Below, piece after piece: positions 8,996 to 30,713 of a stretch of 32,165 nucleotides of DNA. The translations under genes were made by a program, and so were the position numbers. Origin of the DNA: Anaerolineae bacterium (GTDB taxonomy: Bacteria; Chloroflexota; Anaerolineae; B4-G1); NCBI GenBank assembly GCA_026418995.1, contig JAOAAG010000147.1, positions 1 to 32,165 on the forward strand. Direction: 5' to 3'. The first letter of the stretch is position 1. Each line of letters opens with the position of its first letter. Under the pieces are notes generated by a model. It did not search any database. It was given only the letters and a program-made list of their open reading frames with translations, and was not told the origin of the DNA.

Positions 8996-9100
8996 ACTTG
9001 TGTCCCTCCAGGAAAGCTGAGCAAAGCCCTGACGACCGGTGCGATGGTATTATACCCGGATTGCCCACTTTGAGGAAGGGATGGTTTAAACTCCCTCTGC

Positions 9101-9270
9101 GCTCTTTGCGGTTCAATGAAAACCGCAAAGGGCGCAAAGCGCGCAAAGAAGACATGGAAAACCCTTTGCGTCCTCCGCGCTCTTTGCGGTTCAATGAAAA
9201 CCGCAAAGGGCGCAAAGAGCGCAAAGAAGACATGGAAAACCCTTTGCGTCCTTCGCGCTCCTGGCGGTTT
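9101..9270. repeat. 78-bp tandem repeat (two full units plus a partial third), each containing a CTTTGCGGTT/AACCGCAAAG palindrome
   Basis: Units 9101-9178 and 9179-9256, partial from 9257. Hairpin arms in unit 1: 9104-9113 and 9121-9130. Confidence 0.9.
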
Positions 9271-11953: not shown

Positions 11954-12919
11954 TTGCGCGCACTGATCACCGGGGCAGGTGGTTTTGTCGGGCGACACCT
12001 ATGTACATATCTGCTGACCTGCACCGATTGGGAACTCGTGGGGACGGTCTACCCGGAACCAGTGGATGCTCAACCGGCAGCGCCTCGCCTGCATCTGCTC
12101 CATCTCGACCTGCGCGATTCGGCAGCGGTGCAGACGCTCATCGGCGAGACGCAACCGGAATTCATCTTCCACCTGGCAGCACAGGCCTTCGTGCCCTCCT
12201 CCTTTGCTGATCCGTGGGATACGCTGGAGAACAACATCCGTTCCGAGCTGAATCTGCTGGAGGCCGTGCGCCGTCTGGCGCTCCACCCGCGAGTGCTGGT
12301 GATCGGCTCGAACGAAGAGTATGGTGCCCCACAGCCGCACGAGCTGCCCCAGACAGAGGAGAGCCCGCTGCGTCCCAATAACCCCTACGCGGTCAGCAAG
12401 GTGGCTCAGGACTTTCTGGGACTTCAATATTACCTTGCCTACGGGATACCGGTGGTGCGGGTACGGCCTTTTAACCACACTGGACCCGGTCAATCACCCC
12501 GTTTCGTCGTGCCGGCCTTCGCCAGCCAGATCGCGCGCATCGAGGCCGGTTGCCAGCCGCCCGTGATGAAGGTGGGAAACCTGGAAGCTTCCCGCGATTT
12601 CACCGATGTGCGTGACATCGTGCGAGCGTATTACCTGGCGATCACTCAGGGTGCACCGGGCGAAGTGTACAACCTGGCCTCAGGACGACCACGCTCCATC
12701 AGGTTCGTACTGGAGACCCTCCTGGGGTACGCGCAGGTGGAAGTACATGTTGAGATTGACCCGCAGCTCTATCGCCCTGTGGACGTGCCCGTAGTCTACG
12801 GCAGCGCGGAGAAATTCCGCCGCCTGACTGGTTGGCAACCGGAGATCCCTTTCGAGCAGACCTTGCGCGACACACTTGACTATTGGCGAGCACGGGTACG
12901 CGAGGAGCACGCAGCTTAA
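11954..12919 (+). CDS. NAD-dependent epimerase, GDP-6-deoxy-D-mannose (GDP-4-keto) reductase-like
   Basis: TTG start at 11954 gives (M)RALITGAGGFVGRHL. Motifs NPYAVSK, VRPFNHTGPGQ, FVVPAFASQIARIEAG are typical of RMD-type reductases. Confidence 0.8.
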   Translation: MRALITGAGGFVGRHLCTYLLTCTDWELVGTVYPEPVDAQPAAPRLHLLHLDLRDSAAVQTLIGETQPEFIFHLAAQAFVPSSFADPWDTLENNIRSELNLLEAVRRLALHPRVLVIGSNEEYGAPQPHELPQTEESPLRPNNPYAVSKVAQDFLGLQYYLAYGIPVVRVRPFNHTGPGQSPRFVVPAFASQIARIEAGCQPPVMKVGNLEASRDFTDVRDIVRAYYLAITQGAPGEVYNLASGRPRSIRFVLETLLGYAQVEVHVEIDPQLYRPVDVPVVYGSAEKFRRLTGWQPEIPFEQTLRDTLDYWRARVREEHAA

Positions 12920-20155: not shown

Positions 20156-21370
20156 ATGCAAAGCCGCTGGCCGTGGCTCTTCGTTCTCGCAGGTGGGGTA
20201 GTGTTACTGCTGGCGAGCCTGGGAGGAAGTGCGCTTTTCTTGTTAGCAGGCCTGCTGGCTAGCGAAGGGATGGGCCTGGTCGAGGTACTGGTCATAGCCG
20301 GCATGATAGGCATGGGCTTGCTGTTCGGCATCCCACTGATATGGCATGGATGGGCCGGCTGGCAGGGACGTCCCTCTGGAGTCTTCCGCCCGGTTCTTAC
20401 CGCATGGCTGTGGCTCGCTTTTCTGCTTCTTCTGGTCGCTGGGACGCTGCTTGACCACCTCTCGTTCTATCCCACGTTGCTCTTGCCTCCCATACATGTT
20501 TTGACGATGACGCTTCCCTCGCTGCTCGTGCTATGGGCAGTGGGAGGACGCTTGCGCGGGGCAGTAGCTTCCTGGCGCGAAACCTGCACCACTATGTTCG
20601 GCGGTGGAGCGCTGGCGCTCGGGACAAGCCTCCTGGGCGAGGGAGTGATTGGACTTCTGGCTCTGATGTCAGTGATGGTCGTTGTGATGATGATACCCGG
20701 CGGCCAGGAGATGATCACTGCTCTCTCCGAGCGTCTTCAGGATCCATCCCAGATAACCGAGTTCGCCGACTTGGCGCCTTTGGTCTTATCGCCGCCGATT
20801 GCGCTTGTGTTGCTGGGTGTATTCTCCATCCCTGTGCCGCTTGTGGAGGAAGCCTTTAAGACGCTGGCACCGGGCATCGCCGGTAAGTGGCTACGCCCGC
20901 ACCCTGCGCGTGCGTTCTGGCTGGGGGTAGCCGCTGGCGCGGGTTTTGCCCTCGGCGAAAACTTGTTTAACGGGGCACTGGGTGGCACAGAAGGATGGAC
21001 AGCAGGCGTCCTAGCACGCTGCGGCGCTACGGTGATGCATTGTGCTACCGGCGGATTGGTCGGATGGGGCTGGGGTCAGTTGTGGCGCTCAGGCCGCCCC
21101 TTGCGCCTGCTGGGGACCTACCTGGCAGCAGCGGTAATACACGGGATATGGAATGCTTTGAGCGTCGGTGCCGTGGTGCTGGGAGCGGTGGGGATCACGA
21201 GCGAAAGTGGCTGGCCGGTCTACGCTGCTGGCGTGGGAACATGGCTTATTCTGGGTCTGCTGGCGATGCTGTGCCTCTTGTTTGCCATAGGGTTGCTTAG
21301 CGTAGCCGGCAGGCTATCTGCAGAGCAGGTGACGGTCACTTTCGAAAGTGACCGTCACCTTGTCGCCTGA
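20156..21370 (+). CDS. PrsW-like intramembrane metalloprotease (CAAX/PrsW superfamily)
   Basis: Multi-pass; VEEAFKTL, AGAGFALGENLFN, VMHCATGGLVGWGWG, VIHGIWNAL. Confidence 0.78.
   Translation: MQSRWPWLFVLAGGVVLLLASLGGSALFLLAGLLASEGMGLVEVLVIAGMIGMGLLFGIPLIWHGWAGWQGRPSGVFRPVLTAWLWLAFLLLLVAGTLLDHLSFYPTLLLPPIHVLTMTLPSLLVLWAVGGRLRGAVASWRETCTTMFGGGALALGTSLLGEGVIGLLALMSVMVVVMMIPGGQEMITALSERLQDPSQITEFADLAPLVLSPPIALVLLGVFSIPVPLVEEAFKTLAPGIAGKWLRPHPARAFWLGVAAGAGFALGENLFNGALGGTEGWTAGVLARCGATVMHCATGGLVGWGWGQLWRSGRPLRLLGTYLAAAVIHGIWNALSVGAVVLGAVGITSESGWPVYAAGVGTWLILGLLAMLCLLFAIGLLSVAGRLSAEQVTVTFESDRHLVA
21327..21360. repeat. Perfect 34-bp palindrome AGGTGACGGTCACTTTCGAAAGTGACCGTCACCT (family copy 1)
   Basis: First 17 bp are the reverse complement of the last 17. 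Overlaps the 3' end of the PrsW-like CDS, between convergent genes. Confidence 0.95.
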
Positions 21371-22039
21371 TTACTCAGGCGAGGGGTTGCGCCTTAACAA
21401 CCCCCGCATCAAAGCATTCGCCCGGCTGAGGATTTTCTCCTTGTTATCGCGCCACAGGTGGAACAGTGTGGGAAGGCCGGGTATGAAGAAGAAGGCCAGC
21501 ACCAGCAGCGTGAAATACCGGTCAATTCCCTCCACGTGGCCCAGCGCGGAGCCCAGGTAGTAGCCCAGCAGCGGCATCCCGACAGCCCACACCAGCGCAC
21601 CAAGGAGGTTAAACATCAGAAAGCGGCGGTAGTTCATACCCACCGCGCCAGCTACGATGGGGGCGAAGGTGCGTATAAAGGGCATAAAGCGGGCCAGCGT
21701 GATGGTCTTACCGCCGTGTTTGTCGTAAAACGCTTTTGCGGCTAGCAGGTTCCTGGGCTTGAAGAACAATGATTCTTCCCGCTTAAAAAGGGGCGGACCG
21801 GTTTTGGCTCCGAACCAATAGCCGACCGTGTCGCCCAGAGCTGCAGCACAGAAGAGGAGTGGGCCCAGTGCCCATATGTTCAGCCCGGTGCCGGGCCTGG
21901 AGGCGAGCAGGCCAGCCGTGAGGAGCAGACTATCGCCTGGTAAAAAGAAGCCAAAGAACAGGCCGGACTCGGCAAAGACAATACCAAATAAACCCGCATA
22001 ACCGACGGTTAAAATCAACTGCTCCAGGTCAATGGACAT
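21371..22039 (-). CDS. DedA/SNARE-associated family membrane protein
   Basis: FAESGLFFGFFLPGDSLLLTAGLLAS, ARFMPFIRTFAPIVAGAVGMNYRRF, GDTVGYWFG. Confidence 0.92.
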   Translation of the reverse strand: MSIDLEQLILTVGYAGLFGIVFAESGLFFGFFLPGDSLLLTAGLLASRPGTGLNIWALGPLLFCAAALGDTVGYWFGAKTGPPLFKREESLFFKPRNLLAAKAFYDKHGGKTITLARFMPFIRTFAPIVAGAVGMNYRRFLMFNLLGALVWAVGMPLLGYYLGSALGHVEGIDRYFTLLVLAFFFIPGLPTLFHLWRDNKEKILSRANALMRGLLRRNPSPE

Positions 22040-22059
22040 GCTCTTCTCCTCAGACAGTC

Positions 22060-22091
22060 AGGTGACAGTCACTTCTAAGTGACTGTCACCT
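22060..22091. repeat. Palindrome AGGTGACAGTCACTT-CT-AAGTGACTGTCACCT (family copy 2)
   Basis: 15-bp perfect arms around a 2-bp centre, in the divergent intergenic region dedA/amidase. Confidence 0.95.
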
Positions 22092-22138: not shown

Positions 22139-25100
22139 ATGAGCCGCAGATGGCTCGTTCTGTTACCCTGTTTATGGCTCGCTTTGCTCAGCGCGGCCCA
22201 GGCGCAAAACCCTGCGCCGGTATGTTTCTGGTCGGCACAAGGGGCGGTCTGTGTGCCACGGGCAGCCGGGGTGGGGAAAGAATCGCTGCGAGCGCTCCTG
22301 GCCGGCCCCACCACCACCGAGCAAGCGCAGGGGTTGTGGTCTGCCATCCCGGCAGGAACAGCACTGAGAGCGCTGGACGTGCAACCTGACAGGACTGTCA
22401 TCGTGCGTCTGGAAGTGCCGGAGCGGGCGCTGGCAGCGCTGACCCACGAATCATTCGAGGGTATCGTAGAACAGATTGCCGCTACGCTAGAGCCACTGGG
22501 GTGGCGCGACCTGCGTCTCCAGGTGCGCCATCCCGCAACGGGGAAGTTTGTCCCCCTGGCCGATTTCCTCCCCCCGATTCCTGCCCCGCGCAAAGAGACC
22601 GAGCTGCTGGCTCCCGCCCAGGGGCAGCCCCCAGCCCCAGGCCAGGGAAGGCCTCGCGGTGCGCTGACCGGCAAAACCATCTACGTAAGCGCCGGGCACG
22701 GCTGGTTGTGGAACAGCACGTTGCAAAAATGGCGCACCCAGCGCCCACCTTATCCCTATCCACCCTACGAGGGGCCCATTATCGAGGACCATAATAATGC
22801 AGAGGCAGTGAACCAGTATTTGCTCCATTACCTATGGAACGCAGGGGCGATGGTCTGGCCGGTGCGGGAGCGTGATATGAATGGCTACGAGGTGATTGTT
22901 GACAATGACAACCCTGCACCGGGCACCGGTTACTCGGAAAGCGGCGCCTGGACGACAACATCTTACCCCGGAACAGGCTACGCAGGTGGGAGTTACCGCT
23001 GGACGCTGACGGCTGTCAGCGCCCCGACCGCTGCTGCCATCTGGACCGCGACCATCCCCTTCGACGGTTACTATGCGGTCTACGTCTGGTATCGCCCTGG
23101 CTCAAACCGCAGCACGGATGCCCAGTATATTGTGCACCATGCTGGTGGAACGACCACGTATACCGTCAATCAACAGGAGCATGGCCTGACCTGGCATTAC
23201 ATAGGCAGCTACGCCTTCCGGGGTGGAGAGGTAGCCAGGATTGTGCTGACCAATCTGTCCTCGCAGGCCGGGCGCGTGGTCATCGCCGACGCCGTGCGCA
23301 TCGGTGGCGGCACCTTCAGCAGCCTGGCCGGCATCGAGACCTCCGCTCCCTATGCACCGTACAAGCCATGGTGGGAGGTGGGTGCTTTCTACTACACTCA
23401 GCGGATGGGAATGGAGGCAGCCCCCGACGACATCACCGCCCGTCCCATCTACGCTCGCTGGGAGCACGCGGGAACTTACGACGATGCGGTATACATCTCC
23501 TGGCACTCCAACGGTGCTACAGGGTATCAGACCTACGCCAGCGGCACGGAGACCTATGTGCATAACGGCGAAGGCTTGCCCCGTACCGGGGGCAGCCTGG
23601 AGCTTCAGAATGCTGTTCATACTGAACTCATCAACGACCTCCGCGCCGGATGGGACCCGGCCTGGCCGGACCGGGGCAGGAAGACGAAAAACCTGGGGGA
23701 ACTGCGCCTATTGTGGGACGACGATCCTACCGTGCGGATGCCGGGGGTGCTGGTCGAGGTGGCTTTTCACGACCACCCAACCGATACCGACGCTTTGAAA
23801 GAGCCGTATTTCAACATGCTGGCCGCCCGGGCACTGTACCAGGGCATCGTCAAGTATTTCGAGCGCAGAGATGGGGTGGACCTGAAGCTCCTGCCGGAGC
23901 CGCCCACCCATCTCCGCCTGCGTAACCTGGGGAGCGGAAGGGTGCGGGTGGATTGGCAACCTTCTCCCACGGACAACGCTGGCCTGGCCGGGGATGCGGC
24001 TACCGGCTATCGCGTCTATACCAGCACCAATGGCCTGGGCTGGTCGAACGGAACGCCGGTAGCCACAACCGCGTATACGCTCACGGGACTTACAGAGGGG
24101 CAGCTCATCTTTGTGCGGGTGACCGGCACCAATGAAGGCGGAGAGTCGTTTCCTTCGGAGACGCTAGCGGCGCGCGTGGGATCGCCTGCACAGGTGCTCC
24201 TGGTGAGCGATTTCAGAGACATGAACCGGACGATGGCCATCCCTGAGACCGATCCGGTGGAGGGATATAACATGCGCCTGTTCCTGGAACGTATGAATAG
24301 CTACAACTACACGGTTCAGCACGGCGAGGCGGTCCCCTACCCCTTCGATAGCTCCTCTTCCGAAGCGGTGCGCAGCGGGTTTGTCCGGCTGAGCGATTAT
24401 GCGCTGGTAGACTGGATACTTGGAGAGGAAGGACGCGTCCCGGCGACCGAATCCTCGCTCGAGACGCTGGATAGCACGGAGCGCGCTTTGCTGTCCAGCT
24501 TCCTGAGCGGTGGTGGAGCGCTGTTTCTGAGCGGCAGCGAAGCAGGCCGCCATCTTGCCCAGGCCGCCCCACAGTTTTATAATAACGTCCTTAGGGCCCG
24601 CTATGAAGGAGACGATGCCGGAACTTACCAGGTGTGGCCTGTGGCTGGCTCGCTCTTTGACGGCCTGGGGACTTTCCGCTTCGATGCGCCACGTATGTAT
24701 GATGCCGATTTCCCGGACCGCCTGGCGCCGCTCAATGGCTCCACCGCCGCCCTGCTCTATGACGGCGGCGAGGGAGGGGTGGCAGCCATTCAGTACGAGA
24801 ATCCCCTCAATCGTTGTGAGCGGCTGGTGTACCTGGGCTTTCCTTTCGAGACCATCTGGCCACAGCACAGGCCGACGACAATGGCACGTGTCCTCGATTT
24901 CCTGGGCCGTTGCTTGGGGCCGGCGGTACGCACGGACATTCTCAGCCCCGGGGATGGGAGTGCTCACGCCACCCTGCCGAATTTTGCGGGAGTGAGCACA
25001 GCCAGGGGTAATGAGCTTATCGAGCTGGTAGAGGTCCAGCTTCAAAGGGCTTTTGACGGCTACTACTGGGTGACGGGCACCGCGTGTCTGACCGGAACGC

Positions 25101-25585
25101 TGTGGAGCGCGGAGGAGTTCTGGATTACAGTGGCAAGGCCATCCCCGCCTGTAGCCACGTTATCATGGACGTATCCCCTCCCGTGCCTGAGCGATGGCGA
25201 ATACACGTTGCGTGCCCGCGCCAGAGCGGTGGGCGGCACGCTCTCCGAGCCGGCCGAGGTGTCCTTTATCTATGATACGGTGCCTCCACGCGCCACCGTT
25301 CTCATCACTCCTACCGGCGGGATCACCATCACAGCCCTGCCGGCACTGCGCCTGGAGTGGGAGGCCGTTCCACCTGATGGTGGCTCCGCCCTGGCCTATA
25401 CGGTCCGGCTGGATGGGCGCTTCTATACCACCACAAACAACGTATATACTCTCTCCCACGTTTTCGACGGGCCGCACCTGTGGGGGGTGCAGGTCTTTGA
25501 CGCGGCCGGGAATCGGTCGGCATGGGCAACAGATTCCTTCTACGTGGCACGGCATAACCTCTGGCTACCGGTTGTTTTGAGGTAA
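22139..25585 (+). CDS. Secreted multidomain N-acetylmuramoyl-L-alanine amidase (GerMN-like, Amidase_3 with inserted golvesin-like domain, FN3, further C-terminal domains)
   Basis: ATG at 22139 begins the signal peptide MSRRWLVLLPCLWLALLSAAQA. VSAGHGW, IIEDHNNAE, ISWHSNG, VLVEVAFHDHPTD amidase motifs. Confidence 0.85.
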   Translation: MSRRWLVLLPCLWLALLSAAQAQNPAPVCFWSAQGAVCVPRAAGVGKESLRALLAGPTTTEQAQGLWSAIPAGTALRALDVQPDRTVIVRLEVPERALAALTHESFEGIVEQIAATLEPLGWRDLRLQVRHPATGKFVPLADFLPPIPAPRKETELLAPAQGQPPAPGQGRPRGALTGKTIYVSAGHGWLWNSTLQKWRTQRPPYPYPPYEGPIIEDHNNAEAVNQYLLHYLWNAGAMVWPVRERDMNGYEVIVDNDNPAPGTGYSESGAWTTTSYPGTGYAGGSYRWTLTAVSAPTAAAIWTATIPFDGYYAVYVWYRPGSNRSTDAQYIVHHAGGTTTYTVNQQEHGLTWHYIGSYAFRGGEVARIVLTNLSSQAGRVVIADAVRIGGGTFSSLAGIETSAPYAPYKPWWEVGAFYYTQRMGMEAAPDDITARPIYARWEHAGTYDDAVYISWHSNGATGYQTYASGTETYVHNGEGLPRTGGSLELQNAVHTELINDLRAGWDPAWPDRGRKTKNLGELRLLWDDDPTVRMPGVLVEVAFHDHPTDTDALKEPYFNMLAARALYQGIVKYFERRDGVDLKLLPEPPTHLRLRNLGSGRVRVDWQPSPTDNAGLAGDAATGYRVYTSTNGLGWSNGTPVATTAYTLTGLTEGQLIFVRVTGTNEGGESFPSETLAARVGSPAQVLLVSDFRDMNRTMAIPETDPVEGYNMRLFLERMNSYNYTVQHGEAVPYPFDSSSSEAVRSGFVRLSDYALVDWILGEEGRVPATESSLETLDSTERALLSSFLSGGGALFLSGSEAGRHLAQAAPQFYNNVLRARYEGDDAGTYQVWPVAGSLFDGLGTFRFDAPRMYDADFPDRLAPLNGSTAALLYDGGEGGVAAIQYENPLNRCERLVYLGFPFETIWPQHRPTTMARVLDFLGRCLGPAVRTDILSPGDGSAHATLPNFAGVSTARGNELIELVEVQLQRAFDGYYWVTGTACLTGTLWSAEEFWITVARPSPPVATLSWTYPLPCLSDGEYTLRARARAVGGTLSEPAEVSFIYDTVPPRATVLITPTGGITITALPALRLEWEAVPPDGGSALAYTVRLDGRFYTTTNNVYTLSHVFDGPHLWGVQVFDAAGNRSAWATDSFYVARHNLWLPVVLR

Positions 25586-29498: not shown

Positions 29499-30686
29499 AT
29501 GGACGGTGCGGTGATTCTTAAGCCAGACCGGGGCAGGCCGGTATTGCAGCGCCATCCCTGGATTTTCTCCGGCGCCATTGCCAGCTTCGAGGGGACGCTA
29601 GCCGACGGCGACATCGTCGAGGTATACAGCGCCGAGCGTGAGTGGCTGGCCCGTGGCTACTTCAACTCCCATTCCCAGATTGTGGTGCGCCTCCTGACGT
29701 GGCAGCGCGATGAGCCGATAGACCGGGACTTCTGGCTGCGCAGGCTGGAGCAGGCGATCGCCGCCCGCCGGCCCCTGGCCGCCGACCGGTCTACCACCGC
29801 TTATCGCCTGGTGCACGCCGAATCCGACTTTGTACCCGGCCTGGTCGTGGATCGCTATGCGGAGTGGCTCGTGGTTCAATTCCTCACGCTGGGCGTCGAG
29901 TGCCGCAAAGAGGAACTGGTGGGCCTGCTGGTCGAACTGGTGGAGGGCATACGCGGCGTCTACGAGCGCTCCGATGTCGAGGTACGGACGAAGGAGGGTT
30001 TACGACCGCGGACCGGCCTGCTGTGGGGAGAGGAGCCGCCGGAGCTGATAGAGGTTTGGGAGAACGGGAAGCGCTTCCTGGTGGACATCCGGCAGGGTCA
30101 CAAGACCGGTTTCTACCTGGACCAGCGCGAGAACCGGCTACGGCTGTCTGCTTTCTGCGCCGGAGCCGAGGTGCTCGATGCCTTCGCCTATAGCGGGGCG
30201 TTCGGCCTCTACGCCGCGCTCGGCGGGGCGAGGACGGTCACGCTGGTGGATAGTTCAGCCGGGGCACTGGCACTGGCACGGCGCCATTTCGCGCTCAGCG
30301 GCATAGGCAGCGTGGATTGCGTGGAGGGAGATGTCTTCGGCGTGTTGCGTGGTTACCGCAGTGAGGGGCGGCAATTCGATCTCATCGTGCTCGATCCACC
30401 TAAGTTTGCCTCCGCCGACCAGGAAGTAGCGCGGGCTGCACGGGCCTACAAGGACATCAATCTGCTGGCCTTTCAGCTCCTGCGGCCGGACGGAATATTA
30501 TTTACCTTCTCCTGCTCCGGCGCTATCCCCCCCGACCTGTTCCAGAAAATCGTCTTCGGTGCGGCGGTGGATGCTCGACGTGATGCTCAGATCATCGGCT
30601 TCATGGCTCAGGGGGCGGACCACCCGGTCGCTCTGACTTTCCCGGAGGGGCTATATCTGAAAGGGCTGATTTGCAGGGTCAGATGA
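29499..30686 (+). CDS. RlmI-like class I SAM-dependent rRNA methyltransferase with N-terminal PUA-like domain
   Basis: GRPVLQRHPWIFSGAI, DIRQGHKTGFYLDQRENR, VLDAFAYSGAFGLYAALGGA, LDPPKFA, CSGAI. Confidence 0.88.
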   Translation: MDGAVILKPDRGRPVLQRHPWIFSGAIASFEGTLADGDIVEVYSAEREWLARGYFNSHSQIVVRLLTWQRDEPIDRDFWLRRLEQAIAARRPLAADRSTTAYRLVHAESDFVPGLVVDRYAEWLVVQFLTLGVECRKEELVGLLVELVEGIRGVYERSDVEVRTKEGLRPRTGLLWGEEPPELIEVWENGKRFLVDIRQGHKTGFYLDQRENRLRLSAFCAGAEVLDAFAYSGAFGLYAALGGARTVTLVDSSAGALALARRHFALSGIGSVDCVEGDVFGVLRGYRSEGRQFDLIVLDPPKFASADQEVARAARAYKDINLLAFQLLRPDGILFTFSCSGAIPPDLFQKIVFGAAVDARRDAQIIGFMAQGADHPVALTFPEGLYLKGLICRVR

Positions 30687-30713
30687 CGGTCACTTCCGAA
30701 GTGAGCGTCACCT
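30681..30713. repeat. Degenerate palindrome AGATGACGGTCACTTC-C-GAAGTGAGCGTCACCT (family copy 3)
   Basis: Two mismatches between arms; same family as 21327-21360 and 22060-22091; contains the stop codon of the upstream methyltransferase. Confidence 0.85.

Follow-up and report, generated by a model that had tools for sequence, protein, structure and literature searches.

Two near-identical palindromes, each built of smaller palindromes, stand on either side of a dedA-type gene in this Anaerolineae contig. Of what entity are they copies, and has it anything to do with the gene between them? The window (here and below, the whole stretch of 32,165 nucleotides that was analysed) holds the following features.

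21327..21360, no strand assigned: copy 1, a perfect nested palindrome 34 bp long with a G-C centre; its boxes span 21329-21339 and 21348-21358
22060..22091, no strand assigned: copy 2, a nested palindrome 32 bp long with an A-T centre; its boxes span 22062-22072 and 22079-22089
30681..30713, no strand assigned: copy 3, decayed, with two box mismatches; overlaps the stop of ORF 29499-30686
20156..21370, plus strand: 404-aa ORF whose C-terminal residues are encoded by copy 1; no Pfam match
21371..22039, minus strand: dedA-type gene, a bystander flanked by copies 1 and 2; VTT_dom, PF09335, E=4.7e-18
22139..25585, plus strand: gene with Golvesin_C, Amidase_3 and fn3 domains, downstream of copy 2; start 22139 inferred from sequence

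An earlier note on this DNA had described a perfect 34-bp palindrome at 21327-21360, a 32-bp near-twin at 22060-22091 and, in both, boxes lying 19 bp apart from centre to centre. The first palindrome (AGGTGACGGTCACTTTCGAAAGTGACCGTCACCT) is exactly that. The second is a twin in so far as two perfect arms of 15 nt enclose a CT centre, but its central pair differs from that of 21327-21360; likewise the 19-bp spacing is true of 21327-21360, but at 22060-22091 it is 17 bp. An exact GTGACNGTCAC box is present in every arm (starts 21329, 21348, 22062 and 22079), the central pair being G-C in the copy at 21327-21360 and A-T in that at 22060-22091. The number of near-boxes in the window is far above chance: 9 with no more than one mismatch, against 1.0 expected and a maximum of 4 in 100 shuffles. 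A third copy, decayed and absent from the earlier note, occupies 30681-30713 (ATGACGGTCAC-ttccgaa-GTGAGCGTCAC). No Rfam match above the gathering score was found in the window.

The gene layout had been read correctly: copy 1 occupies a junction of convergent 3' ends, where it supplies the last codons of ORF 20156-21370, and copy 2 lies between divergent starts, preceding that of dedA (22039, minus strand) by 20 bp and the ATG at 22139 by 47 bp. Copy 2 thereby belongs to a minority of copies sited between divergent genes. The identity of dedA (21371-22039) is upheld by its VTT_dom (PF09335); the label 'PrsW-like' for ORF 20156-21370 finds no support in Pfam, even at E<=1.

The genome to which the window belongs (G000) comprises 3.85 Mb in 418 contigs and is 96% complete; it was searched for further copies, a count that the earlier note had proposed. 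It contains 111 exact GTGACNGTCAC pairs, almost all of them intergenic, and the backward-read control word, likewise a nested palindrome, gave zero pairs in G000. Enrichment near particular gene classes, also suggested at the outset, was not seen: no family dominates among the adjoining genes. The element is, like a REPIN, a dispersed, multicopy and mainly extragenic palindrome.

The anatomy of the element was drawn from 67 non-overlapping examples in 0.5 Mb of G000, a sample whose element density is biased because the stretches were picked for containing a copy. Exact boxes in this sample come overwhelmingly in pairs (108/113; single boxes, 5/113, are rare), from which it follows that the unit is the pair of boxes: an inverted pair forming a hairpin, with singlets rare, as in REPINs. 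The unit consists of two 5-1-5 palindromes with AG...CT edges, its consensus being (T)MAG-GTGACRGTCAC-YTnnnAR-GTGACYGTCAC-CTK(A); the letters of the stem hardly vary, while those at mid-loop are close to random. Nesting arises because the unit is an inverted pair of palindromes. Partial third boxes adjoin the hairpin at L055:9673, L079:965 and L081:4396 and resemble replication-slippage duplications. Two further repeat families came to light alongside: a second family, likewise dispersed (CTTTGCG...TTTGCGGTT), forms an inverted-repeat cluster at 9095-9226 of the window and recurs in L056, L071 and L079 of G000, and a third palindromic family (GGGTGGGCGACGGCA / TGCCGTCGCCCACC) occurs in G000 at L065:5502, L073:9509, L090:5672 and L056:4035, in part overlapping genes or arranged in tandem.

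Y1 transposases accompanied by REPs or REPINs are termed RAYTs (PMC3116915; PMC3733652). When Y1_Tnp genes were taken from element-rich and element-poor genomes, a RAYT subfamily of ~190-200 aa proved to be flanked by nested palindromes in several Anaerolineae, mostly at 2-20 bp.

L184 RAYT: ACCTC word on both sides, at 2 and 4 bp
L357 RAYT: AAGTT word on both sides
L355 RAYT: GAAAC type on both sides
L030 RAYT: nested palindromes on both sides
L036 RAYT: nested palindromes on both sides
L022 RAYT: GTGCG word on one side
L162 RAYT, L162:1880-2497: GTGAC word 95 bp upstream and 16 bp downstream
L175 RAYT: GTGAC word 21 bp upstream
G204 Y1_Tnp, C28:12178-12513: between GTGAC elements 12038-12066 and 12735-12763, by coordinates only

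In carrier genomes, then, elements flank RAYT genes, L162 and L175 with the GTGAC word itself and others with sister words. Nested palindromes lie within 200 bp of 5 of 7 core RAYTs, as against 0 of 17 distant Y1 transposases (loci taken as Y1_Tnp hits); L162, L175 and L184 were excluded from this comparison because they had been chosen for holding a GTGAC pair. The best NCBIfam match of the flanked proteins is NF047646, REP_Tyr_transpos (E 1e-14 to 1e-21, all eight under the curated 80-bit cut-off), and the L175 protein matches PDB 4er8, the TnpA-REP of E. coli, at E=7.7e-4. The HYH and YIHxNPV motifs (HUH and tyrosine motifs) are present in the RAYT alignment; L162 has HYR in place of its relatives' HYH and for this reason may be inactive. 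G000 gave no match to Y1_Tnp (PF01797), a model that also misses the L355 RAYT, in an assembly 96% complete, and the 0.5 Mb sample yielded no core RAYT. Co-occurrence with RAYTs (26/30 element-rich genomes; 11/24 in a mixed set) is not counted as proof, because genome size and IS200-like transposases confound it. At L020:735-1316 (G059) and L346:1002-1348 (G204), 4-6 hairpins GGCGGCATCGGTT...AACCGACGCCGCC precede Y1_Tnp genes, a REP-like array that is not nested.

Because RAYT genes in several Anaerolineae are flanked by nested palindromes, we assign the palindromes, with a probability of about 0.8, to a REPIN-type miniature mobile element of which they are copies: compact, doubly symmetric and without the GTAG tag. 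The REP-like option of the earlier note is thus the one that prevails, given 111 exact copies that are almost all intergenic, the lack of a dominant gene class, and kindred RAYT genes that have these palindromes at their sides. The element would comprise two inverted REP-like units, AG-edged 11-bp palindromes (AG-GTGAC-N-GTCAC) ~7 nt apart, and when single-stranded is predicted to fold either into one 14-17 bp hairpin or into two small hairpins. By analogy with REPINs, the RAYT – a Y1 transposase of the HUH kind, akin to those of IS200/IS605 – would recognise the small hairpins, and, to judge from work on IS200/IS605 and on REPINs, could copy or move the pair via single-stranded DNA. Sequence-specific recognition of the box is likely. 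Copies may persist mainly right after stop codons since it is there, presumably, that they do least harm, some even supplying the stop codon; and the word differs among Anaerolineae, presumably by co-evolution of each RAYT with its palindrome. As no RAYT was found in G000, RAYT-driven movement of its own copies is something that we infer.

How widely, and how patchily, is the element distributed? Exact GTGAC pairs are lacking from 10 other genomes of the host's family; one genus of another family carries up to 54, and at least one pair occurs in 38/298 genomes of the class. Scanning 84,980 genomes with a stricter pattern returned at least 106 loci, and among the matches listed all named contigs are from Chloroflexota, mostly Anaerolineae in the wide sense. 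The proteins of the window likewise find their best matches on contigs of Thermoflexales and other Anaerolineae, in keeping with an origin in that class. A few contigs of a viral collection hold GTGAC palindromes too, as a tandem array (L096:2826-2870) and as typical elements (L097:3101, L098:10796). For three element sites in G019, the counterparts in congeners of ~90% identity were examined. At the well-resolved site, L224:7815, the element is missing in two congeners; at the others the sequence between the genes has drifted apart and one degraded remnant is left, and no clean empty site was seen among the three. Elements thus differ between congeners at orthologous sites.

The geometry is not confined to one word. 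When 612 kb from 40 class genomes, picked regardless of elements, were scanned de novo, nested hairpins turned up 9 more times (7 distinct), where shuffled arms predict 1.1, and under a stricter definition local shuffles yielded none; the words include GTGCC, ACCTG, AAGTT, ACTGG, AGAGG and AAACC. The GTGCC word is found in 39/298 class genomes, with up to 134 copies, and the ACCTS word in 122/298, with up to 227 copies, as against 2/176 phylum-sample genomes outside the class. The ACCTS search left two positions per box free. Among 88 distinct copies listed (the total is larger, and the 88 may stem from two main words, so that they do not count as independent events), 83 are inner-palindromic against 53.5 expected, and all 88 are outer-palindromic. 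Inner and outer symmetry are therefore properties of the element and no accident of one word.

The alternative that fares best, unlikely as it is, holds that the palindromes are RNA hairpins maintained by the host at mRNA 3' ends, where they protect or process transcripts or tune the expression of neighbours, mobility being secondary. It draws strength from the tight siting behind stop codons: 63/67 sampled G000 elements are not buried in genes, and 51 of these 63 have a stop codon no more than 30 nt away, compared with 35% expected under random intergenic placement; for start codons, the positions of which are rough because the genes were called by a simple codon-usage script, the figure is 36/63 against 38%. 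The TGA of the first box is the actual stop codon in 13/52 oriented G000 copies, and at named loci of other Anaerolineae 65 of 87 copies fall within 30 nt of a stop. The hairpins are also stable (-24 to -26 kcal/mol), their stems conserved and their loops free. Host-maintained hairpins, however, sit poorly with the lack of copies in 10 other family genomes and with congeners that differ at the same gene end, and RNA folding leaves both the inner symmetry and the RAYT linkage unexplained. Nor is G.U favoured at mismatched centres when these are read as transcript (5 A..C, 3 G..T), from which it follows that selection need not act on RNA. Host function may also select the strongly conserved stems of a mobile element: given how strongly the box letters are conserved, an added role in mRNA 3'-end protection is possible.

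More doubtful again is the proposal that each 11-bp box is bound on double-stranded DNA by a dimeric protein – nucleoid- or chromosome-organising, or a regulator – with two boxes per site. The inner palindrome is retained across different words and the box letters are near-invariant, both of which speak for such a protein. Two dimer sites, however, need neither complementary centres nor outer compensation. The two centre bases of a copy complement each other in 54/64 cases against 30.5 by shuffling, the other 10/64 being one-step mismatches (A..C or G..T); the loop-edge pair behaves like the centre pair; and for 28 box changes the outer partner compensates 12 and the inner partner 2. The outer hairpin, in short, covaries. 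Furthermore, the words vary between genomes and flank RAYT genes. That copies stand at gene 3' ends rather than promoters, taken together with the complementary centres, also makes unlikely the paired regulator-binding site that the earlier note had entertained, and the element is probably not a simple operator. The box resembles matS of E. coli (GTGACRNYGTCAC), which we take to be the MatP site of Enterobacteria, through the common GTGAC...GTCAC palindrome; unlike what we understand of matS, the spacer is 1 rather than 3, the boxes are paired, and they are sited at gene 3' ends.

That the palindromes are bidirectional intrinsic terminators is very improbable. Hairpins behind stop codons and between convergent genes might suggest it, but the T-tract that should follow a GC-rich hairpin is missing (a TTTT run within 18 nt downstream in 0/52 oriented G000 copies), just as the earlier remark that a pure terminator role does not fit would have it; many copies lie 10-30 nt ahead of the next start codon, and some between divergent genes. 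Hairpins with a T-tract at gene ends are, besides, no commoner than in the reverse-complement control (12/322 vs 10 in G000, 7/229 vs 6 in G019). This lack of terminator enrichment at the gene 3' ends of G000 and G019 is an observation in its own right, and hints at little use of intrinsic termination. The idea that copies 1 and 2 bound a composite mobile unit with dedA as cargo owes its appeal to their position, 733 bp apart on either side of the gene, but can hardly be right: just 2/111 exact copies flank the dedA of the window and more than 100 adjoin other genes, relatives without any GTGAC pair still have dedA homologues (G023 and G025, for instance, at ~41% identity), and three copies in 32 kb are ordinary at about one per 25-35 kb. 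The palindromes are unrelated to dedA itself.

If the palindromes are REPIN-type elements, then a broader proposition comes into view, for which we would offer about even odds: an Anaerolineae-wide radiation of RAYT/REPIN systems with a fixed 5-1-5 nested geometry and an interchangeable five-letter word read by each RAYT, the words (GTGAC, GTGCC, GTGCG, ACCTG, ACCTC, AAGTT and others) making up a specificity code of natural origin that could be deciphered by matching each RAYT sequence to its word. To our knowledge, recognition of the REP by its RAYT is poorly defined beyond a few Proteobacteria; in the nested elements, an 11-bp palindrome plus an AG edge seems to be all that is left of the recognised unit. 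Because several words come with flanked RAYT genes, co-evolution between RAYT and DNA is directly testable. The REPIN reading would also account for a large class of gene-end hairpins in Anaerolineae for which we found no published description: in openly accessible papers (subscription journals lay outside the scope) GTGAC and its sister words appeared only in papers whose titles suggest no connection, and no account of palindromic intergenic repeats in Anaerolineae was found.

The parallels with known systems are extensive, as are the departures. As in REPINs (PMC3116915), the inverted pair is the unit, the hairpin is compensated, single units are rare, tandem clusters occur in some genomes, RAYT genes adjoin the elements, and alternative folds – a long hairpin or two hairpins – are predicted. 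Unlike REPINs, the element is just ~33 bp in total, whereas the 16-mers of GI REPINs start 71 bp apart (PMC3116915); each of its units deviates little from a perfect 5-1-5 palindrome, which makes the whole doubly palindromic; and MAG takes the place of GTAG at the edge. The GTAG and CGTC superfamilies of REPs (PMC3733652) are similar in being palindromes of 20-40 bp that lie downstream of genes near their 3' ends, between tandem and convergent ORFs, with ends that supply stop codons, and GTAG repeats have been reported in Chloroflexi (PMC3733652). Membership of the GTAG superfamily fails on the unpaired end tag, GTAG standing at 2/132 element ends and NNAG at 116/132; membership of the CGTC superfamily fails too, CGTC occurring only within the paired stems of G-C copies and being absent from A-T copies. 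GTAG-23 of T. roseum we take to belong to the Chloroflexi GTAG repeats, a different family from the nested palindromes. Set beside the known RAYT/TnpA-REP proteins (NF047646; PDB 4er8), the flanked RAYTs form a divergent branch, one that is tied to nested, non-GTAG palindromes.
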